Positions 7,211-59,500 of a DNA stretch of 64,000 nt are shown here, one piece after another (position 1 is the stretch's first letter; every line of letters begins with the position of its first letter). The notes under the pieces are model-generated. The model ran no database searches. It was not told the origin of the DNA and saw only the letters and a program-made list of their open reading frames with translations. This DNA is from a virus. The stretch covers positions 62,001 to 126,000 of IMG/VR virus record IMGVR_UViG_3300023174_000001; one strand, written 5' to 3'. Both the position numbers and the translations under genes were made by a program.

Positions 7211-7872
7211 TTGACTACACCATAAGACCCGTCTCATCAAAAGACGCTAACTTGATGGTTGTAGAAAATCACTACCTCCACCGAAGAGCCAGCACTATGT
7301 TTGCTTATGGTTTATTTGATGGCGAAGAAATGATTGGTTGTGTAATTTATGGAAAGCCAGCATCACCTAGCGTTTGCGTTGGAGTTTGTGGCAAAGATGA
7401 GTCCTCTAATGTTTTAGAACTAACTCGTCTTTGGATAAAAGATGGCACTCCTAAAAATACAGAGTCTTATTTGATTGGCCGAAGCCTAAGACTTTTGCCT
7501 AAGGAAAAAGATATAGTAATCTCTTACGCTGAAATTGGTGCTGGTCATATCGGAATTGTGTATCAAGCAACTAACTGGATTTACACTGGAATGTCTGACC
7601 GCCATGTTGAGTGGAGACTGGATGGGAAATCTGGCTCCCACTCTCGTCATATCTTTGATGCCCACGGTGGAGTGAATGGTGCGAAAGCATACTACGGTGA
7701 TAGACTTGAAAGACACGAGCGACCACGAAAGCATCGCTATGTGTATTTCAACTCTTCCTCGAAACAGAGGAAGAAAGAACTGCTGGATAAGTTGAAATAT
7801 AAAATCCAGCCTTACCCAAAGAAAGATACAAAAGATGAGTTGGATAACAAATCTATTCAAGAAGAAGCCTAA
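7207..7872 (+). CDS. Mom-like DNA modification protein (GNAT-fold family)
   Basis: 221 residues. It resembles the Mu Mom family, which converts adenine in DNA to N6-methylcarbamoyl-adenine and protects phage DNA from restriction. Visible signatures: ENHYLHRR at 20-27, a beta-rich GLFDGEEMIGCVIYG stretch, VLELTRLWIKDG at 69-80, and the GNAT-like core SYAEIGAGHIGIVYQATNW at 106-124. The C-terminal 40 residues are Lys-rich and may bind DNA. It starts inside the stop of the small zinc protein (ATGA). The modified base cannot be read from sequence. A plain GNAT acetyltransferase is the main alternative. Confidence 0.7.
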   Translation: MIDYTIRPVSSKDANLMVVENHYLHRRASTMFAYGLFDGEEMIGCVIYGKPASPSVCVGVCGKDESSNVLELTRLWIKDGTPKNTESYLIGRSLRLLPKEKDIVISYAEIGAGHIGIVYQATNWIYTGMSDRHVEWRLDGKSGSHSRHIFDAHGGVNGAKAYYGDRLERHERPRKHRYVYFNSSSKQRKKELLDKLKYKIQPYPKKDTKDELDNKSIQEEA

Positions 7873-34948: not shown

Positions 34949-35023
34949 CAGCCATTTTTTACCTCGTGCTTTCATGCATCTTTTACCCAGGTTGCCAGTT
35001 TTTCCTTGTATTACAATGAAGAC

Positions 35024-36412
35024 ATGGCTAAATCTATTATGGAACAGTTGGCTGAACTACCAGAAGCCGAGCGTGCTCTAGCACTTGCTGGCATGGACCC
35101 AGAGACTTTGCTTTGGGACTGGTCAGTTTGGGGCAGACCTGAACAGCAAGCACCTGAAGGTGATTGGAATATCTGGATGTATCTCGCTGGCCGTGGTGCT
35201 GGTAAGACTAGGAGTGCTGCCGAGTGGGTAAGAGAGCAAGCCAAGCACACTAACACGGGTCAAAGGCGTTTCGCTCTTGTTGCTCGTACTGCCGCAGATG
35301 TGCGAGATGTAATCGTTGAAGGTGAGAGTGGGATTATCAATGTGTCTCCTCCTAGCGAGAGGCCATTGTATGAGCCATCAAAGAGAAGACTAACTTGGCC
35401 TAATGGCAACACTGCCACCTGCTTCACAGCAGATGAGCCTGACTCACTTCGTGGTCCTCAGTTCACTCACGCTTGGGGAGATGAGGTCGCTGCTTGGAGG
35501 CAGACACCCGATGCTGCTGGTATGACAGCCTTTGACAACCTTCGTGTTGGTACTCGTCTAGGACAACAGCCAAAGATTATGATTACCACTACACCTAAGC
35601 GTGTGCCGTTGCTCTACAAACTTATTGAAGAGGCAAAGGGTGGTCGTGTAGTAATCAGTCGTGGTTCTACAATGGATAACTCAGGCAACTTGTCTAGTGC
35701 TTATCTAGATGCTATTACTGGAGTGTACGCTGGTACTCGCCTTGCTCAACAGGAACTTTATGGCGAGATGCTTGACAGCGTTGAAGGTGCTCTATGGACA
35801 GATGAGTTGATTGAACTAAACAGGCAGAATGCTCTTCCATTGAATACACCACTTCGTTGTATTGGTGTTGACCCATCAGTAGCAGAGAACCCTAGAGATG
35901 AATGTGGGATTGTTGTAGTCGCATCCACTGGCGAGAGAGATTTATATAAGCGTCAGGCTTGGGTACTTGAAGATGCTTCAGTACATGGCTCGCCTGAAGT
36001 GTGGGCTAACCGAGTAGTTGCTATGGCTCGTAAGTGGGGATGTCCAGTTATTGCTGAAGTAAACCAAGGTGGTGCTTTAGTTCGTAATGCTATCAATGCT
36101 ATTGACCCTAACATCAAAGTATTAGAAGTACACAGCAAGTACGGTAAGCAACTTAGAGCAGAGCCAGTAGTGCTTGGGTATGAACAGGGTCGTGTACATC
36201 ACATCGGGTTCTTAGCCGAACTTGAATCACAGATGCTTAGTTGGATTCCAGGTGAAGGTAAATCTCCAGACAGAGTAGATGCTTTAGTCCACGCTCTTAC
36301 GGCTCTTATGATTAAGCCACCTGCTGGATTTGTTGGTGGCAAACTAACTGCCAAATCAATGGCTAGTCGTAGAATGCCAGATGCTAGAAGTAGTTTGTTT
36401 AGATTGAGATAA
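35024..36412 (+). CDS. Terminase large subunit
   Basis: 462 residues from ATG 35024. ATPase: Walker A LAGRGAGKT at 54-62 and Walker B HAWGDEVAAW near 150. Nuclease: GVDPSVA near 290 and DRVDALVHAL near 425 supply the acidic residues of the RNase-H fold. The enzyme cuts and pumps DNA into the head. The ATG is 6 bases after TACAAT, so the mRNA may be leaderless. It follows a tandem repeat and is followed by a bidirectional terminator, not by the portal, because a reverse-strand gene lies between. Confidence 0.95.
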   Translation: MAKSIMEQLAELPEAERALALAGMDPETLLWDWSVWGRPEQQAPEGDWNIWMYLAGRGAGKTRSAAEWVREQAKHTNTGQRRFALVARTAADVRDVIVEGESGIINVSPPSERPLYEPSKRRLTWPNGNTATCFTADEPDSLRGPQFTHAWGDEVAAWRQTPDAAGMTAFDNLRVGTRLGQQPKIMITTTPKRVPLLYKLIEEAKGGRVVISRGSTMDNSGNLSSAYLDAITGVYAGTRLAQQELYGEMLDSVEGALWTDELIELNRQNALPLNTPLRCIGVDPSVAENPRDECGIVVVASTGERDLYKRQAWVLEDASVHGSPEVWANRVVAMARKWGCPVIAEVNQGGALVRNAINAIDPNIKVLEVHSKYGKQLRAEPVVLGYEQGRVHHIGFLAELESQMLSWIPGEGKSPDRVDALVHALTALMIKPPAGFVGGKLTAKSMASRRMPDARSSLFRLR

Positions 36413-39128: not shown

Positions 39129-40949
39129 TTGGGCGTTTTCAGGCGTGATAAGTCAGCAACACAGAATGCTCCAACAAGAGGTATTCGTGCGTCTGCTCCA
39201 ATCACTAACAATCTACCTGCCAACTCTGTCTTCCTAAAGCCAGTTCCTAACGCTGCTTCTTCCGTTGCTTACAATGCCCCAAGAGCGTTGACTGCTGCCG
39301 CCACTCAGTTGAAGATTGGCGACAGAAGTGAAGCCGAACAATTCAAAAACAGAAGGGCAGCAGCCTCTTCAGCGTGGCAACAAGAAGCGTGGGAATACTA
39401 CGACGCTATCGGTGAAGTAAAGTATGCGTTCAACTTAGTTGCGTCTGTTGTCTCTCGTATCCGTCTTTACCCAGCAGTAGTTTCTAATCCTGCCGAATCA
39501 CCTAGCCCGATTAGGAATGTCGAAGCATTTGACCAGCGTTTAGTTGCCGCAGCAGAGCGTGCTCTACAACGCCTTGATTCAGCGTACGGAGGTCAGGCTG
39601 GACTTCTAAGAGACGCAGCCCTAAACCTACAAGTAACAGGTGAGTGCTACCTAAGCCAAATTCCTATGCGACCATCAGACGGAACTCCAGAGTCTTGGGA
39701 CATTCGTTCCGTTGACGAAATCTCAGTAGATAGTCGTGGAAACATTGTTATTGCCCCTAGACGAGAACTCAAGACTATGGGTGGCGGTTCTCAGAAGGGC
39801 GTTTACCTTTTGCCTAAGGGTGCGTTCATTGGTCGCATTTGGAAAGCACACCCACGCTACTCAGAAGAAGCAGATTCTTCAATGCGTGGAATTCTAGACC
39901 TTTGCTCTGAACTACTTCTTCTAAACAGAACTTTCCGTGCGACAGCCCGCTCCCGTCTAAACGCTGGTGCTCTTTACTTGCCAGACGGTCTTTCAGTTGC
40001 TGCTAACCCAGACCCAGACTTCCCATACACAGACGCGGATGGTATCTACGACGCTCCTACTCCAGAGGAGTTGGAAGACGAGTTTGAAGACCAGTTGATG
40101 GATGCTATGACAACTCCTATCAAGGATGAAGATTCAGCATCTGCCGTTGTTCCACTTATTATTCGTGGTCCAGCAGAACTCGGCGACAAAATTAAGCAGT
40201 TCAAGTTCGAGCGTTCATTTGACCCTATGCTTGCTGCTCGTGCTGACCGTGTGCTTGAGAGAATTATGCAGGGTCTAGATGTCCCTAAGGATATCGTTTC
40301 TGGTCTAGCAAATGTGAAGTACTCGAACGCACTTCAGATTGACGAGTCGCTATACAAGGCACACATTGAGCCTCTTATGCTTTTGATTGCTGATGCTTTG
40401 ACCGTCGTCTATCTACGCCCTTACCTACTTGCTAACGGGTTCACCGAACCAGAAGTAGACCGCATTGTTGTTTGGTACGACCCATCACAGGTTGCTACCC
40501 GTAATGACCGTGCGGCAGACGCTGATATGGGATTTGAGAAGATGGCAGTTTCATTTGAGACTTGGCGTAGAGCACACGGTTTCTCTGAAGCAGAAGCACC
40601 AAGCCCTACTGAAGTTGCCTTGCGTCTACTTGTTGAAAAGGGAATGATTACTCCAGAACTAACGGAAGCAATGCTTGGCGTTGTTGCCCCAGATGTTATG
40701 GAGAAAATCCGTGGAGCAGCACAGGCAGCACAGCCAACTCCAGCAGTTCCAGGTCTAGACCAAATGCTTCAAGGTGGCGAGCCACCAGCAGAAGGGGAAC
40801 AAGCAGCACCCCCAGCCGAAGCCCCGCCTGGACTAGCAGAGCCTACCGCGACTCCTGAAGCACCAGCCGAAGCACCTGCTGAAGAAGTACCAGCACCAAT
40901 TGTTCCAGCAGATGCCACTCCACCCGACCTAGCCGAACCTACTCAGTAA
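39129..40949 (+). CDS. Portal protein
   Basis: 606 residues from TTG 39129 (AGGAG upstream). It resembles actinophage portals: WEYYDAIGEVKYAFNLVASVVSRIRLYP near 90-115, a central stem region, and DVPKDIVSGLANVKYSNALQIDESLYKAHIEPL near 385-415. Portals form a 12-mer ring at the head vertex through which DNA enters and leaves. The last 70 residues are Pro/Ala/Glu-rich and probably disordered. The next genes are a Dps-like protein and the giant proteins, where a MuF-type gene is usual. Confidence 0.9.
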   Translation: MGVFRRDKSATQNAPTRGIRASAPITNNLPANSVFLKPVPNAASSVAYNAPRALTAAATQLKIGDRSEAEQFKNRRAAASSAWQQEAWEYYDAIGEVKYAFNLVASVVSRIRLYPAVVSNPAESPSPIRNVEAFDQRLVAAAERALQRLDSAYGGQAGLLRDAALNLQVTGECYLSQIPMRPSDGTPESWDIRSVDEISVDSRGNIVIAPRRELKTMGGGSQKGVYLLPKGAFIGRIWKAHPRYSEEADSSMRGILDLCSELLLLNRTFRATARSRLNAGALYLPDGLSVAANPDPDFPYTDADGIYDAPTPEELEDEFEDQLMDAMTTPIKDEDSASAVVPLIIRGPAELGDKIKQFKFERSFDPMLAARADRVLERIMQGLDVPKDIVSGLANVKYSNALQIDESLYKAHIEPLMLLIADALTVVYLRPYLLANGFTEPEVDRIVVWYDPSQVATRNDRAADADMGFEKMAVSFETWRRAHGFSEAEAPSPTEVALRLLVEKGMITPELTEAMLGVVAPDVMEKIRGAAQAAQPTPAVPGLDQMLQGGEPPAEGEQAAPPAEAPPGLAEPTATPEAPAEAPAEEVPAPIVPADATPPDLAEPTQ

Positions 40950-40958
40950 GAAAGAAAA

Positions 40959-41432
40959 ATGCATCAGAAACTAGCAGAAAAGTTAGCGGTATGTTTAGGA
41001 GACACCGTTACCTATAAATTTATTGCTCACGGTTATCACTGGAATGTAAAAGGACCTGAGTTCACTCAGTTCCACGATTTCTTCCAAGAACTTTACGAGG
41101 ATGCGGACTCAGCAATTGACCCGCTTGCCGAAAACATTCGCAAACTTGGGTATGACTCTCCGTTCACATTAGAAGATTTTTCTTCATTGACCTGCGTACA
41201 TGTAAATCCAGTTTCTGGAGACCCGATGAAGATGGCTGAAAATCTTTACACAATCAATAAGCACCTGAAAGACTGTCTTACTGAAGCCTTTGACATTGCT
41301 AATGCTTGTAATGAGCAGGGAATTGCTAACTTCCTAGCAGAGCGTATTGATATGCACGGTAAGTGGATTTGGCAGATTGGGACCACTATTGGTGCTGACG
41401 CAACAGTTATCACAAGAATCGAGATTAAGTAA
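40959..41432 (+). CDS. Dps-like ferritin
   Basis: 157 residues, the usual Dps length. The ferroxidase ligands fit exactly: His27, His39, Asp54 and Glu58, with spacings 12, 15 and 4 as in E. coli Dps. The surrounding AHGYHWNVKGPEFTQFHDFF and the helix with ELYEDADSAIDPLAENIRKLG are typical. Dps proteins form 12-mers that oxidise iron, protect DNA from peroxide and can bind DNA. Its position between portal and giant virion proteins suggests a virion or head-linked role. ATG overlaps the next gene's start codon region (stop at 41432). Confidence 0.9.
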   Translation: MHQKLAEKLAVCLGDTVTYKFIAHGYHWNVKGPEFTQFHDFFQELYEDADSAIDPLAENIRKLGYDSPFTLEDFSSLTCVHVNPVSGDPMKMAENLYTINKHLKDCLTEAFDIANACNEQGIANFLAERIDMHGKWIWQIGTTIGADATVITRIEIK

Positions 41433-44400
41433 TGAGCGAATACGAAGATTTTGAGCCAATCAATGAGATAAATAAAATCATCCAAAGTGAGGACATTCAA
41501 GCACTTCCTTCTATTTACGAGAAGAAAGAGAAAACAAATGTTGTCACCGAGGGAACTGCTCTAGTAGCATCAGCAAATAAGAAAACTCTACCTAACCGTA
41601 GAGTTGGAAGATTTGAAATGCTTGAAGTTCTAGAGAGAAGTCTCAGCAGGACAGTTTTAAACTTCAACAACCCATCTCAAAGAGCGTTTACCGCAATGAG
41701 AGAATTATCAGACTTTGTGAATATGGCAACTACTGGAGCAACTCCAAAGATTGCTGACGCACATAGAGACCTACTTCCAGTAGGACACCCACTATCAACC
41801 AAGAAACACAACTTTTCTCAAGAAGAGTTGGCTTACGCTCGTGCTGAGTGGATGTCGGCAGACCCTAGAATTGCCGAAGAGTTCCGCCCAATGGTCGCTA
41901 CTGCTTTTGTTACACCAGCAGATAGCGTAGAGCGTGAGTATCTAATAGCAAAGTTGGAAGCAACAGACGCTACCCTAGTACCAAGGGATGTCATCCTCGG
42001 CCTAACGGCTGGCGGAGACCCCTATGGCGGGGGGAACTCTTTTTTAGCCCGTTCGACGCGTGCTAGGGCACAGCGTCGAGACAGAAAAGGTCGATTTGCT
42101 TGGATGGGCGGAGGAGCCAAAGTATGGCTCGGCGAATTATTCAACGCTGTATCCTCGCTTTTTAGATTTGCTGGCTATAACTCTAAAACTGACTCGTTTG
42201 ACCTAGAAGGTATCCCTGGCAGTCCTTACTTCGGGAAGATTGTTAGCGTACCTGCTTCCAAGGTAGAGGCAGTAAAAGCAATTCTTCCTGAAATTCCTGG
42301 ACTTGCCCTGCCTAAATCAAAGAGCGTTTCTAAAAACCTTATTGTTGACCCAGCATCTTTAGTTGTAAAGGATGCTCCAACTGGTTGGACAAAAGTTTCT
42401 AGCGAGAACGGCGTTGACACTTTCCGTTCTGCTGATGGCTGGGTAGCAACTCGCTACCCTAACCTTGCTTCAGCACCTAATGAGCCAAGCATTACTAGAG
42501 TTCGCGGTGTCAATGATGACAAGAGTATAAATCCAGACCTTCCTGTTTACCACATTGCTAAAGGTTCTAGCGACGGTCTAATTACAGATAAGCCATTTGC
42601 CATAACTCAAGGTTGGGGAGACGCTCAGGCGTTGATTGCTCGCTATGACAAAAAGATTACTTCTAGTGGAAAGCGAAAAAAGGCTAGCAAGTCAGCCCAG
42701 CAAAAGTTTATAAAGGGCTGGACAAAAGGCGAGGGTGGCTACATTCCAGGTAAATGGAATGCTTACACTGGAACATCAGATACAGCAGGTGGAAAAGATT
42801 TCTACACAGACCCAAGCGGAAGATATGTTGCCGTAAAATTAGCAACCAAACAAGAAGATATACAAGACTGGATGCCAGACAGAGAAGGCATTATAAAAAG
42901 AAGCGACGAGCGTACAAGAAAGCAAGTACTGGAGAGTGGGCTACCAATTCACACCTTTGACGGTGCTAAAGATTGGGATGGAAATGTCGACAACCTATAC
43001 AGACTTGAAAGAGTAAAGAGCGACGGTAGGAGAGAACTACTAGGTTTCTATCAAGACCTAGAGGATATCGAGAGAGATACAGAAATCCCACTTACCGAAG
43101 ATAAATCTCAAGATTTCTACGAGAGCGTTATTGCCGATACTATCCAAAATGGTGGAAACACAATTGACTTTGTTGATGGAAGTTGGCCAGAGGATGGTTA
43201 TATCGTTGCTCACGAGGCAGACATTCCACAAAAGGGCGGGACTCTAGCCAAGAGAGAAGAGTTAGTTACCCCAGAAGATTTTGCTGACCCAATTGAAGGT
43301 CCAAAAAAACTTCGTGCTTTTGTACTAAAAAACCAAGACAAACTTTCTCAGCAAGGTTTCTACCTAGGTACTTGGCTAGACACCGTTGATGTAACAGATG
43401 AAAACGGAAAAGTTGTAGACCAGCGTGAGATGGTATTCCTAGATGTTAGCGAATACGAGCCTAACTTTGATAAGGCGTTTGATAAAGCCGAAGCCAGAAG
43501 CGAACTTGCTTACTATGGCGTATCTGAGGGTAGAAGTTTCTATGTAAAGGATGAAAAGCATAGGCGAGAAGTAGTCCGCAAAACTCCAGTCTTCGATGAA
43601 GCAGAAGAAAAAAGAGTTAGAGCAGAAGCCGACAAGATTATCAAAGAAGAAGGTAAGTGGTTTTCTGATAACAACCTAGAACTACAGAGAACTAGAGTTG
43701 CCTTCTGGAAGGGTAGTGGCGATGACGCAATTCCTAATCCTGAACTACAAAAAGATTACCCAGAAATATATAGAAGACTAACTCGCAGATTTGAAGCCGA
43801 AAAATCGAGAGGGTCTGTATTTAGAGAATACATTCGTTCTGTCTTCCAAATGTCTGACGGTATGGACCCAGGTGGTAGAAACGATGGTCTATCTGGTGAA
43901 TTGCTAAGAACTAGAGATAACTATGTCGGAAACGACAGAAAAACTTTAGAAATGAACAAAGCCCTGCGTGATGGCGGGGATGTTACTTCCAAAGTACAGA
44001 AGATAGATGCTCTAGTAAACAAATCTAAGTTGAAAGACGACACTCAGTTCTTTAGAGGTGCTTGGCTTGACCCAGAACTTGTAAAAGATATGGAAGTCGG
44101 AGATATGTTCTTTGACAGAGCATTCCAGTCTATGGGCCTAGAAGAAGACACTGCTTCAAGTTATTTGGATTTTAGAGAAGAAGTTGCTCCAGGTAAATCT
44201 AGGGTCATATTTAGATTACTCTTGCCAAAGGGTATGAACGCTATCCATGTTGGCGATGATGAAGTTATTGGTAGACGCAACACCAAAATGCGTATAATTA
44301 GAAAATCAAAACTAGACGGTACAACCTACTTTGATGTAGATGTTGAGCCTCAAACGAAAGAAGAAATAGATGCCAGAATCCAAGGGCGAGTCGCAAAACC

Positions 44401-47400
44401 TGAAGAATCTAAAGATGGTGCAAGTTCCAGCAAACTTCCAGCAAATGACGGAGGAGGAACAGATGGCTTGGGCGACGGAGGCACACTCCCAATTAATTAC
44501 GGCCCTAAACCAGCAGGACAAAGGCAAAACAACAGAGAGTTAGAGTCATTTGACCCTAACGACCCAGTACCAGCAGCACCAAGAAACGCTGGTGGTATGA
44601 CAACAGGTACTTGGTGGGCTTGGGAGAAGGGTCCTGACGGTCAGCAATACATTGACTATATGAGGCAAGTGGCTTGTCGTTTGACCGGGTTGCCAGTGCC
44701 AGAAACTCAATTTGATAAAGGTAGAGGCCTACACTTTATGCTAAGCAGGGGTTGGGGTGCTCCTAATGAAAAAAGCATTGCTGGTATGGTCAATGCAATT
44801 GCTGATGGTCCAGCACAGCCTACTTTATTCCGTGGATTAGGAATAAGCGATGTTGAAGGTGACGCTTCTTTGCTAGGCAAGCAAGTGGGCGACACTATAG
44901 ATATGCCTTTGGCATCTTTTACTCGTTCTGCTGGTGTAGCGACTTGGTACGCCAATGACAGGTCCAGAACTTCTGGCACACCAGTGATAATCAAAGTACA
45001 GCAGGGTGCTAATGGTGTATCTCTATCAGCAAAAAGTTCTTACTATCCTATGGACTACGAGACTGTAGTAAATGGAAAATTTGAAGTAGTAAGTACTGAA
45101 GATGTAACTATGCCTTTCTGGGATAGAAGTTATGTTACTTTTCACAGTGGCAATACCCAAGCCGGGGAGCCTGTCGATTTAGACCCAGTTATTGCTAGGA
45201 GAGAATTTGACATTCCACCTGAGGTTCTAGTTAAAGTTAGAGAAGCACTAAAAGCAAACCCTGATGCCGATTTGTCGGAATTTGGCTCAGACACAATAAG
45301 ATTTACTAATGACCGTAGGCAATATGACCGCCAACTGTCAGTTTCGGTGTGGAAACTTTCAGAGCCTAAAACTTTTAAAGTATTAGAACTAAAGCAAGTA
45401 GAGCCACTTAGAATCAAAACTAATAACTCCGATGGTACCGAGCAGTCAGACTCCACTTTACTTATGGGGCCAATTTCTCAAAATCCAGCCCCAACTCTTT
45501 CACTGAACAACTCCCCTAAACTTATGGGCGAAAGACCAGAGCAAGCCACAAGAATAGCCGACCCAGAAGAAGCAATCTGGGATAGGGCACTGATTGACAT
45601 TGGAATAAGAGATGAGGTCATAGACGAGACCATAAGAACTCAAGATAATTTAGAAAATGTCACAAGACAGGCGTTGAAAGACCATGTTTCCTTAGAAATA
45701 AGGAAAAAACTAAAGGGTGTCAGCGACAAAGAGTTTGTAGAGTTGATGACGCAGGGGTTAGCCAATAACCTAACGGTAGAAGATTTTGGTTTTGAAGGCA
45801 CTAGAAATATTGATTTTATTGGGGTAGTAGATATAGATGGAAACAGTAATAGAACTCGTGGTCTATATACCAGCATCGGTAGATTAATAAGTTCAAGTGG
45901 AGGCGTGCCTCGTAATTTTCCAAAAGATTTGGCTGACCGTCTAAAGACTGGAAAAATTACACGCAAAGATGCTGAAGAAGTTGTAAGGCTACTAAACGAG
46001 TTCAGAGCAACTCCACCTTTTGTTGATAATGGAAAATTACACATTCCAAGTGTTGACGACAAAGATTTTATGGAATACCTGAGATATAGAACTGTCTCTA
46101 ATTTAATTTCAATGTGGGCTGTAAGTTCTAACGGAACTAATCCTTTATCTCTTGCTATTCAGTCAGTAGCCGAAAAAGAATTTGGCGTAAAAGGTATGGC
46201 GGAATGGGATATGCCTATTGGAGTTGCTAATGAAGTTAAAGATATTGCCAAAAAGAACGAAAACATACTTAGAAAATTCTTAAGGGCTCAGTATGACCTC
46301 ACTCAAGAATATTTTCAAAAAAAGGGAATATCAAAAATAACTCTCTATCGTGGAATAAAAGAGTTTATGAGACACGATATCAAAGATGCCACCTTCCCTT
46401 CAGAAAATGGATTTATGGCCTCAATAAAACTTAGACCACTTTCTGCTTGGTCTACCAGCATGGGAATTGCTAATAGATTTAGAAACATTCAAAGTGGAAA
46501 AATGTTCCGTAAAGAGTTTGATGTGAAAGATATATTCTCTCTACCAAGCACTGGCGTTGGATGTTTTCCTGAAAAAGAAATTGTAGTACTAGGTGGACTA
46601 ACTAAAGATGTGGATATATCTGGTGAATACAAGGTTGACCAGCCTAGAGCAGTGTTCCCTTCTCCAGAGCCAAGACCAATAACATACAAAGAAGACCAGC
46701 CACAAATACAAGTAAACAATGCTCCAATTGACCTAAGCAGAATTCCGCCAGATGATGGCGGGGAAGAGCCAGAACTAGACATCTTTGACCTAGAAGGTGT
46801 AAACCCATTCTACGCAGACCCTGCTTTCCACAAACAACAAGTTGCTAGAAATATAGCGGACTCGGATGAAATGGTGGAAGTCAGCGACTTCGATATGGTT
46901 GAACTATCTGGTTGGTTCAACTTATTCTCCACTGACGAATTGGAGTGGGGCGATGATGGAAAAAGAGCAGTTGGCTCTATTCGACTACTTGCTTTGGATA
47001 ACGGCGAATGGTCTGGCGATTATGATTTTTCTGACCTCCTCTCTAGTGTTGAAGAAAACATTAAGTTTGGCGGAGTCGAGCCATTTAAAAAGGGCAGTGT
47101 TCTTGAACGCGTTGTAAACGGGTATATAAACGGAGAAGACCCGTCAATTTCAAAAGAAGAACTGGCTAAATTCTTTGAAGAATACAACGAACACTTTGAT
47201 GTAGATTACGCCGACTCTTACCTAGTTCCAGACATTGAAAATCAGCAATTTATGAACCTTCTTAGAGAAGAAATTGCTTCAAACTTAATCCATGTTTGGG
47301 CAGAGACTTCAAATGGCGACCACCCAATGTCTCACGCCATTCAAGAAATTGCCGCCGACATTTTGGACATAAAAGAGCCAGCAGAGTGGGATGAAGGTAA

Positions 47401-49903
47401 TAAAACACAAGATGAAAAAGATACTTTATTCAATTCTATTTTAGACATTAGAGAAAACTACGGAGAGGCTTTAGAGGCATTTGTCAAAGCCCAGTATCGA
47501 ATTACTCAAGAGTGGTTTGAAGAGCGTGGGATAAAACAACTTAGAGTTTATCGTGGCGTAAAAAAGCCTATCGGGGCGGATGAGAAGAGTGGGATAGTAA
47601 AACTTAGACCGCTATCCGCTTGGTCTCAAAGACTGGACACTTCTTTGGATTTTACAGGTGGCACAATTAATCCTAATGGGACAGTTTTTAGGTCAATAGT
47701 CGATGTAAAAGATATTTTCTCTACTCCTTTTACTGGGTTTGGTTGCTTAGAAGAAGAAGAAATTGTACTTCTTGGTGGCAAAAAACAAGTTGACGCAAAA
47801 CCAGTAAAGGATGTTTGGGGCGGTTTTTGGAAAGACGAGCCACAAGTTGTCATAAACAACGCCCCTATCCCAAACCTTGGGCCAAAAAAGGGTAAAGGCG
47901 GTCTGTCTAAAGAAATCGAAAGAAGACAGAAGCGGGTACAGCAACAACAAGAAGAATATGCTAAACGCCTAGAAGAGCAAGAAAAAGCCAAAGAAAATAT
48001 CAAGGGTCAGGTTGAAGCAGATAGAGAAGAGTTACAGCAACAAATTCCTCAAATTGCTCAGTCGCTACCGCCTATGGTAGAGGATTTATTTGACCCAAAT
48101 AACCCTATGAATATTTTAGATGCTAAAGACATAACTCAAGACATTTTTGGACTTCCTGGCAGTCCAGACATTAGAGAACCTTACTCGGTTTCGGTTTTGG
48201 AGCCAAACCAAGTTTGGAAAGATTTAGTAAAAAATCTAGAAAATCTAGGTTTATCAAATGCTAAAGATATTGAAAGTGAAGTAAATGACAAATTTAATTC
48301 ACAGATATTAGACATAAAAAGAAAAAGAAAAAATGCTTCTGAATCAAAAGAAAAATTAGAAAAATCTTTAGTGAGGGTGGAAAGAAGTATAAAGGCTCTT
48401 GAAGACGAGATGATAATAAATAATTTTGGACTCAATCGGCCTTCGACTGACCCTGCTACTGCACAATTTTTAGCCCTTATCTCTAGAATTAAATCCGATT
48501 TTGATAGTTGGGCTAACCAATATTATCACTTAAGAGCGGGTGGCCCCGCCGATATTGCTAGTTCTCCACTATATGATTTGGCAACTATGCTACATAAAGG
48601 CGAATGGTCAAGAATTGTGACAGGTGCTAATTCTCAACTAAATGAAATTGGAAAATTACAGGACAGCAGAGAGAGACAAAAAGGATTTGACAGAGTATTT
48701 GCAAAGGTTGTATTAGGCACCTACTTAGTTCCAAACATGGACTACGAGCAGAATCTTAAAAAAATACATGAGGAAAAGTATGTAGAAGTTATGTTAGGTA
48801 GAAAAGTACCTAAGAGCGTAGTAGATTCTGCTATTTTTGGTCTAAACAACGATTGGATGGAGTGGTATAAAGACGCGAGCAAACTAAGAAAAGCCACTGA
48901 CGATTTCTCTAAAAAGGTTTCTGAAGTTATAAAAGAGAAATTAAAGGAACTTGGAATTGAATTTGAACATGATGTGTCTATATCAGCAAACAACATAAAT
49001 TACATCGGCACTGGCAAAGTTAATATATTAAAACTGGCAGAAGGTAAGCCAAAGAGCGAGTGGTGGGAGGCTGATGGAAATGTCGGTACGCATCTAAAAA
49101 ATGCTTCCTCGTACGCCTCTATTTTAACAGAGGCTTTACAAGCATTCCCTAGGCCAATTGCCGTAGTCCTACAAAAATTTATAGTGGAGCATCCAGAAAT
49201 AATATTCTTTGGTAGCCGTAGAGGTGCTTGGGGTACCACCCCTAAAGACACAGATATAAAAGAAATAAAAAATGTTGACCCTAAAGATAAGCATATGTTC
49301 CTACAACTAGACGGTAGTACTAGGGAAGAGTCCGTGATTACCGCATCTCACGAACTAACCCATATGCTGATAACTCAAATTCTTCCTGAAATGCAACCAG
49401 TTGAGTGGGCAGTGTTGTCGTCGCTTATTAATCAGACAGATGCAAATGGTAAAATAAGCCACGACTTAATTGGAGCAAACGGTGGGGACATTTTGATAGG
49501 CGGGGAGTTGACATCTCTTTATCCTAACGATGCTAGGGCCCTAATGACGGCTGAGCCATCTGGCTACACTCCAAAAGTGGCAACTCCATACTCCACTAAG
49601 TATCAAAATTACGCAGGATTAGGGGCAAAAAGAGGCAGTGTAGTTGGCTTAAATCCATACGGACACGGAGAGTTACTATCTACATTGACGGAATCTATGT
49701 TTAATGGCTCTAATCAGGTGTTTTACGGGCAAGATGGAGTATCTCCTGGCGACAAAGTGCGTATAGGATATAATGCAGATGGAACAGTAAAATACTTTAC
49801 AATACCAGAATCGCCAATTTTTAATACTGGAGCACTTCCGCTTGGACTTGCGATAGCATTGTTAATGAACCAATTAGCGAAAGATAAGTTAGAGGTAATA
49901 TAA
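41432..49903 (+). CDS. Giant polyvalent protein with four ADP-ribosyltransferase-like domains and HExxH peptidase
   Basis: 2823 residues. An N-terminal part ends in a QRRDRKGRFAWMGGG motif (about 213-228) shared with the next giant. Four ADP-ribosyltransferase-like domains follow: about 870-985 (FRGAW, QSMG, DDE), 1128-1220 (FRGLG, ASFTRSAG), 1636-1722 (YRGIK, LSAWSTS, EKE) and 2038-2115 (YRGVK, LSAWSQ, EEEE). The last two belong to a ~400-residue tandem duplication. A coiled coil lies at about 2159-2205. HELTH at about 2639-2643 marks a zinc peptidase near the C-terminus. It overlaps the Dps-like stop. Such proteins may be injected with DNA to modify host targets; one or more domains may be inactive. 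Confidence 0.8.
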   Translation: MSEYEDFEPINEINKIIQSEDIQALPSIYEKKEKTNVVTEGTALVASANKKTLPNRRVGRFEMLEVLERSLSRTVLNFNNPSQRAFTAMRELSDFVNMATTGATPKIADAHRDLLPVGHPLSTKKHNFSQEELAYARAEWMSADPRIAEEFRPMVATAFVTPADSVEREYLIAKLEATDATLVPRDVILGLTAGGDPYGGGNSFLARSTRARAQRRDRKGRFAWMGGGAKVWLGELFNAVSSLFRFAGYNSKTDSFDLEGIPGSPYFGKIVSVPASKVEAVKAILPEIPGLALPKSKSVSKNLIVDPASLVVKDAPTGWTKVSSENGVDTFRSADGWVATRYPNLASAPNEPSITRVRGVNDDKSINPDLPVYHIAKGSSDGLITDKPFAITQGWGDAQALIARYDKKITSSGKRKKASKSAQQKFIKGWTKGEGGYIPGKWNAYTGTSDTAGGKDFYTDPSGRYVAVKLATKQEDIQDWMPDREGIIKRSDERTRKQVLESGLPIHTFDGAKDWDGNVDNLYRLERVKSDGRRELLGFYQDLEDIERDTEIPLTEDKSQDFYESVIADTIQNGGNTIDFVDGSWPEDGYIVAHEADIPQKGGTLAKREELVTPEDFADPIEGPKKLRAFVLKNQDKLSQQGFYLGTWLDTVDVTDENGKVVDQREMVFLDVSEYEPNFDKAFDKAEARSELAYYGVSEGRSFYVKDEKHRREVVRKTPVFDEAEEKRVRAEADKIIKEEGKWFSDNNLELQRTRVAFWKGSGDDAIPNPELQKDYPEIYRRLTRRFEAEKSRGSVFREYIRSVFQMSDGMDPGGRNDGLSGELLRTRDNYVGNDRKTLEMNKALRDGGDVTSKVQKIDALVNKSKLKDDTQFFRGAWLDPELVKDMEVGDMFFDRAFQSMGLEEDTASSYLDFREEVAPGKSRVIFRLLLPKGMNAIHVGDDEVIGRRNTKMRIIRKSKLDGTTYFDVDVEPQTKEEIDARIQGRVAKPEESKDGASSSKLPANDGGGTDGLGDGGTLPINYGPKPAGQRQNNRELESFDPNDPVPAAPRNAGGMTTGTWWAWEKGPDGQQYIDYMRQVACRLTGLPVPETQFDKGRGLHFMLSRGWGAPNEKSIAGMVNAIADGPAQPTLFRGLGISDVEGDASLLGKQVGDTIDMPLASFTRSAGVATWYANDRSRTSGTPVIIKVQQGANGVSLSAKSSYYPMDYETVVNGKFEVVSTEDVTMPFWDRSYVTFHSGNTQAGEPVDLDPVIARREFDIPPEVLVKVREALKANPDADLSEFGSDTIRFTNDRRQYDRQLSVSVWKLSEPKTFKVLELKQVEPLRIKTNNSDGTEQSDSTLLMGPISQNPAPTLSLNNSPKLMGERPEQATRIADPEEAIWDRALIDIGIRDEVIDETIRTQDNLENVTRQALKDHVSLEIRKKLKGVSDKEFVELMTQGLANNLTVEDFGFEGTRNIDFIGVVDIDGNSNRTRGLYTSIGRLISSSGGVPRNFPKDLADRLKTGKITRKDAEEVVRLLNEFRATPPFVDNGKLHIPSVDDKDFMEYLRYRTVSNLISMWAVSSNGTNPLSLAIQSVAEKEFGVKGMAEWDMPIGVANEVKDIAKKNENILRKFLRAQYDLTQEYFQKKGISKITLYRGIKEFMRHDIKDATFPSENGFMASIKLRPLSAWSTSMGIANRFRNIQSGKMFRKEFDVKDIFSLPSTGVGCFPEKEIVVLGGLTKDVDISGEYKVDQPRAVFPSPEPRPITYKEDQPQIQVNNAPIDLSRIPPDDGGEEPELDIFDLEGVNPFYADPAFHKQQVARNIADSDEMVEVSDFDMVELSGWFNLFSTDELEWGDDGKRAVGSIRLLALDNGEWSGDYDFSDLLSSVEENIKFGGVEPFKKGSVLERVVNGYINGEDPSISKEELAKFFEEYNEHFDVDYADSYLVPDIENQQFMNLLREEIASNLIHVWAETSNGDHPMSHAIQEIAADILDIKEPAEWDEGNKTQDEKDTLFNSILDIRENYGEALEAFVKAQYRITQEWFEERGIKQLRVYRGVKKPIGADEKSGIVKLRPLSAWSQRLDTSLDFTGGTINPNGTVFRSIVDVKDIFSTPFTGFGCLEEEEIVLLGGKKQVDAKPVKDVWGGFWKDEPQVVINNAPIPNLGPKKGKGGLSKEIERRQKRVQQQQEEYAKRLEEQEKAKENIKGQVEADREELQQQIPQIAQSLPPMVEDLFDPNNPMNILDAKDITQDIFGLPGSPDIREPYSVSVLEPNQVWKDLVKNLENLGLSNAKDIESEVNDKFNSQILDIKRKRKNASESKEKLEKSLVRVERSIKALEDEMIINNFGLNRPSTDPATAQFLALISRIKSDFDSWANQYYHLRAGGPADIASSPLYDLATMLHKGEWSRIVTGANSQLNEIGKLQDSRERQKGFDRVFAKVVLGTYLVPNMDYEQNLKKIHEEKYVEVMLGRKVPKSVVDSAIFGLNNDWMEWYKDASKLRKATDDFSKKVSEVIKEKLKELGIEFEHDVSISANNINYIGTGKVNILKLAEGKPKSEWWEADGNVGTHLKNASSYASILTEALQAFPRPIAVVLQKFIVEHPEIIFFGSRRGAWGTTPKDTDIKEIKNVDPKDKHMFLQLDGSTREESVITASHELTHMLITQILPEMQPVEWAVLSSLINQTDANGKISHDLIGANGGDILIGGELTSLYPNDARALMTAEPSGYTPKVATPYSTKYQNYAGLGAKRGSVVGLNPYGHGELLSTLTESMFNGSNQVFYGQDGVSPGDKVRIGYNADGTVKYFTIPESPIFNTGALPLGLAIALLMNQLAKDKLEVI

Positions 49904-50533: not shown

Positions 50534-53500
50534 ATGACCTACGCCTTTGGCATTTACTTTGAAGATGATGACAACCTCGGACTGGTAGCGGCTGGTAATC
50601 GCTGGAATTCTGGCGGAAACTCTACTTTAGCCCGTCGTCTCCGTGTGGCTATGCAACGCCGTGACCGTTATGGTCGCTGGGCTGAAATGGGTGGAGGAAT
50701 CTCCTTCAAAGGTAGGTTCGGCAACACTGGAAGAGTCATGGATGCCGTTGGTCGTTATGTCGGCCCCGCTGAGCGTGAAGGCTATATGCGTGTCTATGTC
50801 ACCAGCGGAAGAGGTCTTCAAACTGGTGTCTATGAAGTGCCATCAAAAGTTGCCACTGTAGCAAAGGCTCTTCTAAGTGAAGAAGCCCTAAAAGATGTCG
50901 GCGTAAACCTAGATGTCAATGGAAACCAAGTTGGCGATGTTTTAGATAGAGATATTGAATTCTTCGCTGGAATGTTCAAGGGCAAGCCAACCGATTTTGA
51001 ATTGGATATGGCTCGTGGCAAGGTTAGCCCGAAAGAGAAAAATACAATTGTAAAGGCTCGTCTAAAGGCTCCAGCCCACAAGTCATACAACATTGTTGAT
51101 AAGAACGGCGTTCGTATTGACAAAGATGAAGAGCCTACTAAGCCAGATGTAAAGAAGCCAAGCAAAAAGGCTAAGCCAGCCGAAGTCTTCCCGCTACCAG
51201 ACTTAGATAAAGATATAGCGGAAGAGAACCCTAAGAAATGGGCAACGCTATCTGAAGAAGAACGAGCAGCAAAACTTAAAAAAGAGCGTAGTCGTCGTGA
51301 CTTTTATGTAGGTGCTAATGGCAAGCGTATTCCAGATAATAAACTAACTGACGCAGATAAAACTCCAGAGAACCGCCGTATCCGTGACTTAAAGAACCAC
51401 CGTGTTCTTGACGGCAATGGTCGTCTTATAGAGTTCATTCCAGAGTATAAGCCAGAAGCAAACCCAGTGCCACAGGGCGAATTCCACCCAGTGGAAGACC
51501 CAGATGAAGGCTTTTGGAACGCCAACCAAGTAAAGCCGGGGGAAGTTCAAAAGAACCTGACTACTCCTGAAGAAGTTTACGAAGCACTATATAACGGTGG
51601 ATTTGTTGAAGTACCAATAGAACTAGCACTAGCAGCGGGTGATATTGCTTATGCTGATTTGCCATTCATAGGTAGAGACGAAAACCCTCTATTCCAGTCA
51701 AATCCTAATGACCCTAGATTTAGAGAAATTGCTAATATCCTCTCTTCTCTACCTCCAGCACAGGAAAACAGACTAAAGCGTGCCATAAACCTAGCCCTCA
51801 TGAGTGAAGAAAAAATTGATGCTCTAAAGGCTTATCTAGAAGAAAATGTTGGAGAGGCTACTGGTTTATCCCCAGAAGCGTTTGCTGAACTGCACAAAAA
51901 ATTCCGTAACCTAGGTGTCGACCTCACCAACATGCGTATCCAAGGTGTAGATGCTTTCAGCAACGATAACCTCGGTGCTGAGCGTATTAATATGCCTCAA
52001 CTTGACGCAGACGACCAAGCGGATTTCTTGGCATACTGCGACAGACTTGGTATCAACTACAAAGAAGCAATGGCTAGACCGCAAGAACTGCACCCTATCC
52101 AAGCAGAAATGGACTTTGGGGATGTCATAAAGATTAAGAAATCTTGGCTGGACCCTGAACTTCGCAAGAGGTTTGGTATGGATGACCAGTACCTATTTGT
52201 TACTAGAGACGGTTATGTTCTAGACGGACATCACAGATGGTCATCTGCTCTTCTTGCTGAGATGGAGAGCGGTAAGCCAATCAACCTAAAGGTAATGGTT
52301 CTAGATATGGACCACGAAGATGCCTTGAAGTTTGTGAACGAGTACAACGACCATGTTGGTATCACTCGTCAAATGGTTGGCGGAAATAAGGTCGCTGACC
52401 CTAGACCTGAGGCCCCTAAAGCCGAACTACCTACAGGTCCATCTGTTGTTTCTGATGATGGCGGAATTGTTCCAAATTATGGCCCAGAAGGACCAACGCC
52501 ACCTGATGGCGGGGACAATGTAGTAACTCCTAGTGGAGAAAACTTTAATAACTGGCTCGATAGAGAACTTGCCAATGTTGGCGACAGGATTATTCCAGAA
52601 TTTAGCGGAAAACTAACTAACGATACCCCTAACCCAGAGAGCAGAACCAGCCCTTTCCCTGGCTCTCGCACCGTGGTAACTAATCTTTTGGCATATAGAG
52701 ACTCACTGATGTCTGCACTGAAAGAAAGTGCACTTGACGGAAACACTGAAAAATTCAAGTTTCAATTTGAAATTGCTAAAAGAGTTACAAAACTCTTAAA
52801 TAAGATACACGAAAATTTTTCTAACGACAAAAAATATGGTGCCGATACCGAACTAGAACTTAGTACTAGCAATCCTGAAGAAAAACTAAAAGCAATTAGA
52901 GTTCTTCCAGAAACTATGAAGACCGAAATTGATAATAGAGGAATTAAGAGAATAAAGTCATTTAGTGCCGTAATTATTGCTAAAAACGGAAAACCTTTCT
53001 TACTAAAGTGGTCTACGCATTCTTCACAGGCTTACAGTATTAAGCCAGATGGAAGCATTAACTCTACTAATGACGGCGGTGGAACAACTTTTGCAGAAAT
53101 CCAAGACTATAACAGTGTAGTTGATGGAAAACCAGTAGCAACGATTGCCCATGTGGGTGGAGCATTTACCGAAGATAGCCACCATGCTCTAGGCTTTGGT
53201 GGTGCCCACATTATGCTATCCCGCTGGGTTATGCATATGTTTAATGGTGGAAAACTTCAGCACAGTTCAAACTTGAGTGCTAGAGGAAACGCATACTCAA
53301 AGATGGTCTCTAGAGACATGCGTTGGAACAATAGAGCACAGGCGGACAAAGCAGTTCAAGTAAATTGTCCAAATGCGGATATTTTTAAAGTCCTCACAGA
53401 CATGGGATTGGTTGACGGGGAATATATTCCAGCAACACCTGGTGCTAAGCAGAATGATAATACTCCTGGTGGACATGGAAGTTCCAGTGGTGGAAGAGGT

Positions 53501-56500
53501 TGGCTAAAGAGACTAACATTCACAAATAATCAAGGTTGGTCTGACAATGCTTCTGTTTTAAGAAGTTTTAGCATAAACGGCATTGTTTCAGATTTAGAGC
53601 AAAGATTTAATGCCAAGACCGATGAAGAGAAACAGGCAGCACTAGATGCTATGCCACCTATTTTTAGAGATTTCTTTGCTGGAGATAAGTCTAGAAATAT
53701 TGAATTCCGTTTCGAGGATTTTGATGTTCAGTATAATTTGCTTGCTACTGCTTATAGCGATGGAATGAAGCAGCAGGAAGCCGTAGATTTCTTAAACACA
53801 TTAATTGATGGATTGCCTCAACTTGACGCTGCCTTTGGGTTAAACAGAGCACATACAGACTCAATTCAAAAATTAAAGCGTCTAAGAGACGCTATAGCGG
53901 CTCGTCAATGGGACCAAGCCAACAATAACTACAACAGACCTAAGCCTTTCAATACAAACAGCATTCGTGCTATTCAATCCCCATTTGCTGGACACTTCAA
54001 GTTCAATGAATGGCAACTTCCTAGAGATGTAAATAGGATTATGAATGACCTGCCGTTTGACCCAAGACCAAGAAGCAACGGAGAACATGCTGACTGGACA
54101 GAAGACCCTCAACGACTACAAGAGTTGTACGGACCTGAAACTCTTCTCGCTTCTCTTAGAGACTCTATTCTCAGGAATAAAGGTAAAATTGCCAATCTTC
54201 CAGCACTATCTACTGGTGCTGATGGTGTAAACAATGTAAATCCAACTGCTGTCTACAAAGCATTGGAAAACCACGGATACGATACTGAACTTATCCTTGC
54301 TGGAATTTACGATGAACTAAATGGCAACACCGCTAACACAGATGCTTTGACTGCAAAAAGAAGTGAACTTGGAAACCTACAAGGCATCATTGAGCAGTTG
54401 GCAAGAGAAGTTGGACAATTAGACGAGCCAGTAGAATTTTCTAGCATTGGTGGAGACTATGACCCAGCAAGCCGTATTCTTCAATCAGACATTGTAAAGC
54501 GTGGAGATGTCGGAGAAGTTCCTACATCACTTCAACTAAAACCGCTTGCCTTAGACAATGAATCTTACGATTATGTAAACGCTAACGGCGGTAGAAGTCA
54601 AGTAATGCGAAATGCATCCTATGTTCCGCAAATACCTCTTTCTAAATTTTACATTGATGGGGTAGCAGATAATCCAAAGATTATTGCTAGAAACTTTAAC
54701 CCAACTGGTCTAAGGAACGCTCTAATTGACGCTGTTTCAAACAACAGAAACTCAGTCAAACTAAGATTCCCTAATGGAAATGAACTAATTGTTGAAAACG
54801 CTGCTATTAGAGATGCTCTACAACTTCAGGGTTATGACATCAACAGAGTTTTGTCAGAACAGACAACCATAAGACCAGCAATAAAACAGATTTCTAGTAT
54901 TCAAGATAGAGATGATGTTGACGGCAATGGCACTAGAGTTACTGATTTTGGTATTGGAACAGACATAGCAAATGGTCCTGGATTTAGACAAAAGAGAAAT
55001 GATGGAACAGGCGAGTTTGATTTCTCATTAGTAGATTTAACTAATCCAGCAAGAAATACAGTCGCTCAAATAGCAAAAATAAAGAAAAATGCAGACGGTA
55101 AATTTGAAGTTTGGGTGGCAAAAAGGGCAGATGGAAAAACTGACGAGTTTACTGGAGAGCCTAACGGTGTATATGAAAATGTACAAAATGCTCTTTTTGA
55201 TGTAAAAAACCACATTCAAAAAGAACTAAATATTAATGCCAACACAAACCTTCTAGGAACCGCTTCAAAACCTGTTGCTAGTCCTGACTATTCTATTGTC
55301 GGCGGTCAAGATGACGAGTCTCAAATTACCGTCGGAGATATGGTCCTAACTAAGCCAGACGGGGCTGAATCTTTTGTAGTTTACACAAACGGAGACAGTG
55401 CAAGAGGATTTAGAAGAATACCTGGCTCTGAAGATGGTGTCAGTACTGGAACGGTATACACTCAGACCGTTCAATCAACTGGAGACATATATTCAGAATC
55501 ATTCAAGCATGTCTCTAAAGATGTAGATGGCCAACTCAAAGAAAAGCAAGTATTTGCTATTACAAAGATTGGCGATAAGTTCCAACTAACCACCAACAGG
55601 TTTGGTAGTGACAACTTAAGTCCAGATAGGACAGAGACTCTAATTTTTGGTAGTTATGATGATGCCAAAGATTTTGCAGTTAGAGGACTAATTAACGGCA
55701 AAATTGGTTTTCAAACTGACCAAGTTAAAAACTTCCCTAACCTAACAACAACTAGAGAAGTAACTAAGCCATCAGCAGATTTGCCAAATCAACAGATTAC
55801 TCAGGATGCTGCCTCTATTCAGATAGTTACACCTGCAACTATGACTAGCGGAGTAGTTGGAGAACTGAAAGTAACTGTCCAAAAAGGTGCCCACCCTGCT
55901 TGGAGAAATGGTGTTGTAAACACCCCTTATGTTTTTGCTGAGTTTAGTTTCTCTCCACCAGCATCACAAGGCGGAGAGCCAGCATACATAACTGGTAAAA
56001 TTATTAGAACTGGTCGCTCAGAGTGGCAAGTAAAGATGACTGGAAACAGTCCTAGTTTTAATGAAAATGGTCAATATATTAGCGGTTCTCTCAGGGAGGG
56101 CACCAATTACGAATCTACTAAGCAAGATGCCCTAGACAGACTAAAAAAGAAACTTGATGCTGCTTTTGGTATAGAAGAATCCCAAAGAGACCGAGGAGAG
56201 TCTGTTCTACCTAGAATTAGACTTGTTGATAAGGCCGTTGAACTTGAGCCTAAACCAGAACCTCCTGCCTCGGATGACCCTAGTCTGCTTGCAGATGGTG
56301 TCTTTGATGAATTCTTGGCAGTTAGAAACACTCCTCTTGATATTCCAGACGCTACAAGTCGTGGGTACATGGGTCTGGGGATGTCTGACTCTGCGAGATT
56401 TGAAACTCCAGATGGTAAAAACTACAAGGTCAAAGATGAGGGCAGTAGAAAAGCAGCATCCGAGTCATTAAACCACGCTCTACATTTGGCCTTGGGAATT

Positions 56501-59500
56501 CCAGCAACTCCCGCTAGAACTGGAAAAGCACCTGGCACAAGAAACCAAGTCAACCTAATTGACCCGTTCGAACCAGACATTGTTCCAGGTCGAGTAAATG
56601 GTAATATGAATGGTCAAGAACTATTTACTAATGCCGAGTTCAACAAGCCAGAAAACCAGCAAGCAATTGCCGACATACAAGAGGGTCTAATAATTGACTA
56701 CTGGCTTGGAAATGTTGACTTTGTACTAAATTCAGGAAACTCTTTTGTCGCCGTGAGAGATGGCGTAAGAAGAGGTGTTCGTTGCGATGTTGGTGGAGGA
56801 ATGTTCTCCGCAATTGGACAACAGGTAATTAATGACTGGACTGACCCAAACGAAGCGGTAAGAGAGTTTAAGCACTATAACAACGATTTCATGGGCAATA
56901 ATGATACAGTCGCTGGCTCAACCACCGATGGGCACATGAGACGAGGCCTCACTAAAGAAAAGTATGTTGAGATGGGCAGAAGAACCCTTCTCCGCCTAAC
57001 AGACGATAAAATCGACAGATTAGTTGATGCCCACATCACCGACCCTACCGATAACGCTAGAGCAAAACAGGCTCTAAAGGCTAGACGCGTAGCAATGCTT
57101 AATTATCTAGGCATTGACCCTAATGAGGCACCACCAACAGGTGGACAGCCTAGGCCGACATACGCAATTTTACCGAATGCTCAGTTGGCCAGAGACGGCT
57201 ATGAGTTTGTCGGAATCAATGTTGAAGGTAAAAAAATTGTAAGAACTAGGGGAGCCGTTCTATCCGACGGAGTCTTTGTTGCCCCGATTGAGAATATTCC
57301 AGAAGCAGTCAGAGAAAACATAATTAATGGAATTTTTGTTCCAGAAAATCTACCTTTCCACGCCATAGATAGAAATGACCAAAGTAAATCTATCGTCATT
57401 GACGGTGCTGGATTGGTTAGACCTGCTTCATCTATTGCTGCTGGATACACATCTCTAATTATTAGAAAGAAACTTCCTAACGGGCAGTACGGATATTTGA
57501 TTGCTAGACCTGGCAACACTGAACTAACTAAACCACATGGTAAGGCAAACGCAAATAAGTTTGGTCCAATCATTCATGAAAACACACCTGGCCAACCTCC
57601 AAAAAATGCAAAAGATATTGTAAATGAGATTTTTGGAACAGGCAATGCTGGAATTGGCGACAGAGTTATTGCTGAAAAAGAGATTCTTTTAGATATTCCT
57701 GGTTTACTTGGGAAGCAAAGAGTTTTAGTTGCCGATATTGATGACTTTGACTTCTCTGCTACTAGAGATTTTGCAATGGCTAATGGTCAAATTGGGCCAT
57801 CAAAATTTGCAACAGGTGCGAACTTTATAAAAGGATACCCACACACTCCTATTCTTTCTCAGGCTCCTGGCGATGGCGATAGAATTGCAAACAAACTTAG
57901 AGAGTGGGAACAAAACTGGCATTCTACTGCTAGCAATGTTCCTACTGAATCAGACAACAGAAGCGGTGGAGACGACGGAAGCGGTCCATCAAATCCTGGC
58001 GGTGGCGATGGCGGAGGTGGAACTAGCGGACCTCCTCCATCTGGCTCGTCAGATGATTGGAAGACTCACTCTAGAATTTCTTTGGTATCTAGAAGACCTG
58101 GATTCCCAGAAACAATAACACGACTCAACATTTTTAGTAGAGCAGACGGTGCTCTTGCTGTAGATGATGTGAGTTCAGGAAACACAATTGGCCATATCAA
58201 GCCACTTGAGCACGGCCACTGGGTAGCAACATTTATGCCTGGCCTTATCGGAGATAATAATAACGGTAATGCTGCTAAGGCGTTCTTTGCAAATAAAAAA
58301 GATGCTGAGAACTGGCTAACTAAAAAAATCTATGACCTAAGTTATGCTGACCCTAGAGGTGGAGAAAGAATTGCCACCACGGTTGGCGTTTCAGGAGATA
58401 GGTCTTATGACGAAAATGCTCCTCAACCTCCTTTTGTTGTAGAAAGAGGATTCCTAAACCCAACCACTCCTGCTCAAACTCGTTTGGCTAAGAGACTTGT
58501 CAAGGGTAAGAAGGCAACTCCTGAAGAAAGGGCTATGTACAAAGCCATTCTTTCTCAGAAAAACCCTACCGTTGGCGATGTTGGTTGGATAATTGGTCAA
58601 CTTAGAGATAGAGAAGATAGGGATTCAGCAGAACTAGCAGCATCAAAGCAAGCACAAAACGATGCTGTAAATGCTGGCAATCCTATTAGAGAGTCTTCTT
58701 TGGATAACGGCGGAGATGGCTCTAACAGAGAGCACACTGTTCTCGCTAAAAACCTACAAGTTGGTCAAAGAATTCTTGGCAATATCAATGCTGATGTTGT
58801 ATTCACCGTTCCAGGTGAAAACGACACTATCAATATTGGTGTAGTTGGAGATGACGGAAAACTTAAGGTTTACAAGGTCAATAAAAATAGAAATCTTACT
58901 TGTATTTTTGGAAGACAGCCACAAGTTGCCCCAGCACAGCAAGCAACTCCGCATCCAGCCGTCGCTGCTCGTGCAAATAGAAGCAGACTAATTCAAGAAG
59001 CAATTAGAACAGCGTATCCAAATTCTCACGCTCTTCCTAACGGCGACTTAGTTATTGGTCAAAGAGACCACCGTCAAGCCGATGGTAGAGTATTCCGCTA
59101 CGAAGCAGTGGTCCACAAACTGAAGTCAGATGAGTTTGTTGGTTATGTGAGAAGACAACTTCTAGATGCTAACGGAAACCCTACTGGAACTGGCGAGGCT
59201 GCTTACCTAACTAAGCCAGCCCACTCTCCAAGAGCATTGAAGAACAGATTGTCAGGTAGAGTTATTCCTGCTCTTATGGCAAACAACCCAGCAAACGGGT
59301 TCAACCAGCCAAATGGTGACCGTCAGAACGAAGCAATTGACCCAGCAACTGGATTGCCACTACCAGAGAGCCTAGTATCTCAAACACGATTTGTTGGCAA
59401 TACTGGAATTGAAAGCACTGGACACCCTGCCAAAGACGCTCTTATTGAGTATGTTCAAACACTTGTTGCTAGAGGAGTTTCTGCTCCAGAGATTATTAAC

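Follow-up and report, generated by a model that had tools for sequence, protein, structure and literature searches.

A phage protein of the polyvalent type with four predicted ADP-ribosyltransferase domains, a zincin-like peptidase and a recurrent peptide at its module boundaries

A 64,000-nucleotide stretch of the viral record IMGVR_UViG_3300023174_000001 (bases 62001-126000 of 135,069; hereafter the window) encodes a polyvalent-type protein of 2823 amino acids (41432..49903, +; ATG start) in which four ADP-ribosyltransferase (ART) domains are followed by a zincin-like metallopeptidase and a short peptide of the form hydrophobic-N-[NY]-[AGS]-P stands at every module boundary. We read this protein, with a probability of about 0.6, as a head-associated polyvalent effector of a tailed phage related to phage DSL-LC01; its packaging, ejection, catalysis, targets and cleavage are what we infer from its architecture and context. 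The constant N-terminal part (approx. 340 residues) would bring the protein into the prohead; behind it would come a row of exchangeable ARTs with R, S and E active-site residues (R-S-E type), two of them DraT-like, and at the end a zinc peptidase. Once packaged and then ejected with the DNA, the ARTs would modify several host proteins, and the boundary peptide would be recognised, most likely by a protease that frees the modules, with the protein's own zincin and the prohead protease as equally plausible cutters.

ART domains and C-terminal zincin

The R, S-x-S-like and E motif series occurs four times in the same order, as a first-pass annotation of this DNA had claimed, and R, S and E residues are present in each of ART1 to ART4. 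Motifs and the structure model place the ART1 core at residues 853-983 (43988..44380, +), with R875, FQS at 898-900 and D-D-E944; the ART2 core spans residues 1072-1236 (44645..45139, +), with R1134, SFTRS at 1162-1166 and D-Y-E1210. ART3, which is DraT-like, comprises residues 1379-1731 (45566..46624, +; R1640, LRPLSAWS at 1667-1674, E1714-x-E1716), and ART4, its tandem duplicate, residues 1797-2128 (46820..47815, +; R2041, LRPLSAWS at 2058-2065, E2108-x-E2110). Of the four E-x-E-like motifs that the annotation had noted, those of ART3 and ART4 are true E-x-E, whereas ART1 and ART2 have D-x-E. Its tandem duplication of about 400 residues was recovered by BLAST of protein segments (residues about 1430-1739 against 1817-2138; 33% identity; E=2e-41), with a repeat length of approx. 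387 aa.

A profile of ART3 and ART4 matched two actinobacterial genomes and 49 viral loci; the latter include Bacillus phage SP-15 as well as some that belong to the present family. The DraT-like R-S-E family of these two domains is present in about 40 phage loci besides this one. Every one of the 38 aligned homologues, which come from diverse phages, has the R and the final E of E-x-E, and 23 of the 38 match the Pfam family DRAT (best E=2e-7, in the C-terminal part of that profile). The 2823-aa protein itself scores 19.5 bits against DRAT (PF07357), below the curated cut-off of 25, and the related L049 protein passes with 26.1 bits. In profile comparison against ART3/4, ART2 gave a moderate match (70% probability) and ART1 a marginal one (6%); the case for ART1 therefore rests on its motifs and on the structure model. 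Pfam ADPrib_exo_Tox had no match in the 2823-aa protein, and the H, Y and D active site of Tox-ART-HYD2 is absent, the ARTs carrying R, S and E residues instead. A PDB sequence search with the ART3/4 profile returned nothing credible, and NCBIfam gave no useful match.

Structure prediction, which had been proposed as a check of the ART assignment, bore it out. AlphaFold models of residues 690-1765 (ART1 to ART3; mean pLDDT 76) and 1755-2823 were compared with PDB by Foldseek; as query ranges were not reported, individual ARTs cannot be paired with individual matches. The first model matched iota-type, VIP2, C3 and Vis ARTs (E=6e-10 to 6e-7). Its matches to two-ART binary toxin components and VIP2 (E=6e-10 to 1e-8) extend over 460-590 alignment columns and thus span more than one domain, and target TM-scores against single ARTs (C3, Vis, Certhrax) were mostly 0.51-0.59. 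The motif residues of ART1, ART2 and ART3 each lie at the expected strands. In the second model, where ART4 is mostly above pLDDT 85, the best PDB match was TreX, an ART toxin of the Rhs type (probability 1.00; with this long query, however, E=0.16), and cholera-type ARTs were also among the best matches. Compared with viral models, residues 1755-2823 matched a phage protein with a head-morphogenesis domain (E=1e-10), SP-15 gp258 (E=1e-9) and, with probability 0.51, an annotated ADP-ribosyltransferase of cyanophage S-PM2.

The zincin-like metallopeptidase comprises residues 2554-2820 (49091..49891, +). The HELTH that the annotation had located near residue 2640 lies exactly at 2640-2644, and H2640, E2641, H2644 and E2747 are invariant across five relatives, which have HELTH, HELLH or HEMWH; the position of E2747, in HGELLS, fits that of a third zinc ligand. 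The model shows three strands (837-840, 845-850 and 866-872, model numbering), a helix at 877-896 and, further on, a helix with the Glu, i.e., the HExxH helix, downstream Glu and three-stranded sheet of a zincin.

N-terminal module and exchangeable cargo

The protein opens with a helical region (residues 1-186; 41432..41989, +), which is conserved in 30 viral loci and is followed by a constant module (residues 187-340; 41990..42451, +) with the motif GNSxxARxxRxxxQRRDRxGRFAxMGGG. The core of this module, GNSxxARxxRxxxQRRDRxGR[FW]AxMGGG, is also found at the start of the neighbouring giant protein and in further proteins of DSL-LC01. The 30 loci were collected with the N-terminal 361 residues as query; a pattern scan of viral contigs with the whole protein had found no relatives, probably since its patterns were too specific.

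Close relatives retain the N-terminal module, ART1 and the zincin, and vary in the middle. Loci L010 and L014 have the order ART1, ART3-like, ART4-like, ART2, second ART1-like, zincin; in L007 it is ART1, ART3-like, ART1-like, ART4, zincin. L016 and L017 have, between ART1 and the zincin, an ART3-like domain and ART2, respectively. In the second ART1-like copies (L007 residues 1560-1800; L010 residues 2150-2530) the catalytic EVI has become AVL, and these copies appear to be decayed. In more distant loci (L019, L022, L024) the N-terminal module carries domains of other kinds: UvrD helicase, RNase T-type exonuclease and NUDIX. As the ends remain the same while the cargo (ARTs, helicase, exonuclease, NUDIX) is shuffled or replaced, we class the protein as polyvalent in the sense of Iyer et al. 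2017 (PMC5512222).

In L018-L020, contigs that are 94-99% identical, the N-terminal region forms a separate open reading frame (ORF) of 199 aa, which ends (at about 10580) in a TAA that is followed a few bases on by an in-frame ATG, just before the QRRDRxGRF core. The first 190 or so residues can thus exist as a separate protein.

Boundary peptides and their possible function

The four copies of hydrophobic-N-[NY]-[AGS]-P (VN[NY]AP-like), a feature absent from the first-pass annotation, occupy all four module boundaries: NYGP at residue 1022 (44495..44506, +) between ART1 and ART2, NNSP at residue 1359 (45506..45517, +) between ART2 and ART3, NNAP at residue 1762 (46715..46726, +) between ART3 and ART4, and NNAP again at residue 2142 (47855..47866, +) between ART4 and the zincin part. 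Shuffled sequences held a mean of 0.11 copies per protein, and none of 2000 reached four; by hand count over six distinct members the peptide stands at 16 of 19 boundaries despite differing neighbour modules. These statistics are descriptive, as the motif was picked after the sequence had been seen and the relatives are homologous and not independent. When all 5-mers present three or more times were sought without a preset motif, VNYAP emerged in L010. All four peptides sit in segments with pLDDT <50.

At equal residues, the codons of the copies in the 2823-aa protein differ with a frequency of 0.59, compared to 0.52 expected for random synonymous codons. The copies therefore differ as much as random, which indicates that the peptide, and not the DNA, is kept; an origin as recent DNA repeats was rejected on the same grounds. 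The variable module order among relatives, with the peptide at the joints, would also be expected if the peptides were functionless remnants of module exchange, i.e., recombination joints, but the persistence of the residues while their codons have diverged to the random synonymous level argues for selection, and we regard such remnants as very improbable.

Another reading involves no cleavage: the protein could be packaged and injected whole, as is the virion RNA polymerase (vRNAP) of phage N4, with the peptide as a flexible spacer or docking motif and the zincin directed at host proteins. N4 vRNAP, ArdC and TraC1 have been cited as transferred full-length proteins with zincins, and P1 DdrB as processed where N4 vRNAP is not (PMC5512222); L017, moreover, has a zincin without the peptide. 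A simple spacer, however, would need no conserved N-[NY]-[AGS]-P core amid differing neighbours and randomised codons, and we consider delivery of an uncut protein rather unlikely.

Alternatively, the prohead protease or a different head protein may act on the peptide in trans, by cutting or by binding it, with the zincin as simply a further effector. T4 gp21, which processes packaged proteins, offers an analogy, and a protein containing a prohead protease is encoded downstream. Further points in favor of recognition in trans come from other phage proteins with ART3/4 domains, which bear repeated boundary peptides of their own. KGDxxGHxFHGNQ[WY] occurs in 8 copies in L049 and 8 in L053, a GPS[PQ]K[EQ]E-like peptide in eight or nine copies in L070 and L085, and an EYHGPxPPGEGW-like peptide in four copies in L064; ETVDAPK is repeated in L051 and KGGPGSGR in L052. 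The proteins of L051, L052, L064, L070 and L085 are, like the present one, giant. In L049, L053 and L052 the repeated peptide is also present in separate neighbouring ORFs, as expected of a site recognised in trans, and the repeats of L051 and L064 occur in the absence of any HExxH motif. Against this, hardly any N-[NY]-[AGS]-P lies outside the ART protein in the genome studied here; the next gene has a single similar site. Overall, we give this alternative less than even odds, ahead of delivery of an uncut protein.

The peptide of L049 and L053 is widespread in viral contigs (L110-L189 in addition to these two), where it is often repeated, with up to 8 copies per ORF and copies in neighbouring ORFs as well. 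A DNA-pattern scan for GHxFHGNQ found at least 111 ORFs in at least 80 viral loci, at least 26 of these ORFs having two or more copies, and KGDxxGHxFHGNQ[WY] has the appearance of a tag or processing site shared across phages. A literature search for this peptide, incomplete in coverage, gave no paper. More generally, we tentatively propose, at less than even odds, that some phages package ART polyproteins in which every module is bounded by a phage-specific peptide that, recognised by the zincin or the prohead protease, yields several independent ARTs from one chain and also tags co-delivered proteins of that phage.

Several observations, besides the post hoc choice of the motif, weigh against the favored reading of a head-packaged effector whose modules are freed at the peptides. 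L017 has no boundary peptide even though its zincin is present, and the peptide is missing at one boundary of L010. The Foldseek match of the zincin was weak (anthrax lethal factor, E=1.5, probability 0.18). ART1 and ART2 lack E-x-E, and the catalytic Glu is missing from the extra ART1-like copies of L007 and L010; some ARTs may therefore be inactive, to judge by their motifs. The D-x-E of ART1/2, in place of E/Q-x-E, and the lost Glu would also agree with decay of most of the ART folds, which would then have a structural or binding role. This we hold to be improbable, as the R and last E are invariant in the 38 ART3/4 homologues, and the R and E are retained in all full ART2 sequences.

T4 Alt is a single-ART enzyme; if the favored reading is correct, head-packaged R-S-E ARTs would extend from such single enzymes to exchangeable sets on one chain. 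The boundary peptides would then offer concrete candidates for the sites at which polyvalent proteins may be processed or sorted, and could mark delivered effectors in phage genomes; processing of such proteins has been suggested, but apparently not mapped, in the literature.

Genomic context and comparison with known systems

The gene lies among phage late/head genes, as do those of polyvalent proteins, in the order TerL, portal, Dps-like, ART gene, giant gene, prohead protease, scaffold/major capsid. The terminase large subunit (TerL; 35006..36412, +) is 78% identical to that of DSL-LC01, an Actinomycetia phage from a lake, and the portal protein (39129..40949, +; phrog_776, E=3e-104) 68% identical to the DSL-LC01 portal; the host of this freshwater virus is therefore most likely an actinobacterium. 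While the head-gene neighbourhood agrees with the first-pass annotation, the ART gene does not adjoin the portal gene as stated there, since a gene for a Dps/ferritin-like protein of 157 aa (40959..41432, +) intervenes. The position of this putative DNA-binding protein is unusual, and its stop shares one base with the ATG of the ART gene.

Downstream, a second giant protein (4227 aa; 50534..63217, +) opens with the shared module in the form QRRDRxGRWAxMGGG. A Pfam search of this protein gave nothing above cut-off; by eye, a ParB-like DGHHR stretch is seen near residue 560. Past the window (G000 127305-132167), a 1620-aa protein is homologous to three DSL-LC01 "capsid maturation protease" proteins, thus uniting three separate DSL-LC01 genes in one chain, and has two further RDxxG[RK]F motifs; it is followed by an apparent scaffold/major-capsid gene, assigned by reading the sequence only. 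Elsewhere in the window are a Mom-family DNA-modification protein (7207-7872; Pfam E=8e-44) and, on the opposite strand, a 908-aa protein with a PA14 domain (1629-4355, -).

Iyer et al. 2017 (PMC5512222) defined the class of polyvalent proteins, proposed self-processing by zincins and reported members with several ARTs, one of them with 12. The suggestion in the first-pass annotation that the peptidase might cut the chain into effectors had thus been made before for this class; the repeated boundary peptide lends it indirect support. The view that four such domains in one protein are unusual was thus too strong, as multi-ART phage proteins are also found in L049, L051, L053, L070 and L085, and we rejected the idea that the arrangement is unprecedented. 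The present protein resembles the polyvalent proteins as a giant multidomain chain in a head-gene context, with variable effectors and at least two different effector-type domains in one polypeptide (four ARTs plus a zincin); it differs in that all four of its ARTs are of the R-S-E type. The terms linker, short motif and repeated motif are absent from the text of PMC5512222.

Close known systems also include T4 Alt, which is packaged and injected, and the Alt/VIP2 ARTs fused to MuF and sited among head genes that were described in a 2022 survey (PMC9503650). An R-S-E ART encoded with head genes is common to all; the present protein differs by its four ARTs and zincin, and neither a Pfam match of the Alt/VIP2 type nor a MuF domain was detected in it. 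E-x-E at the catalytic turn, a mark of the arginine-type Alt/VIP2 family, occurs in ART3/4, the corresponding motif in ART1/2 being D-x-E. DraT, the dinitrogenase reductase ART (PF07357), is the family whose profile many ART3/4 homologues match; the 2823-aa protein differs from DraT by its sub-threshold score and its multidomain phage context. SP-15 gp258 (469 aa) is 28% identical over ART3 and has the R, PLSSxS and ExE motifs in common, but is a short protein with a single ART and not a giant polyvalent one. The DSL-LC01 giant protein WJZ48510 occupies the same locus and shares the N-terminal module (34% identity), but its cargo is different, the ART and zincin parts giving no significant match to it by BLAST. 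Compared to these systems, what is new is the presence of R-S-E-type ARTs in a polyvalent protein together with a peptide at every module boundary.
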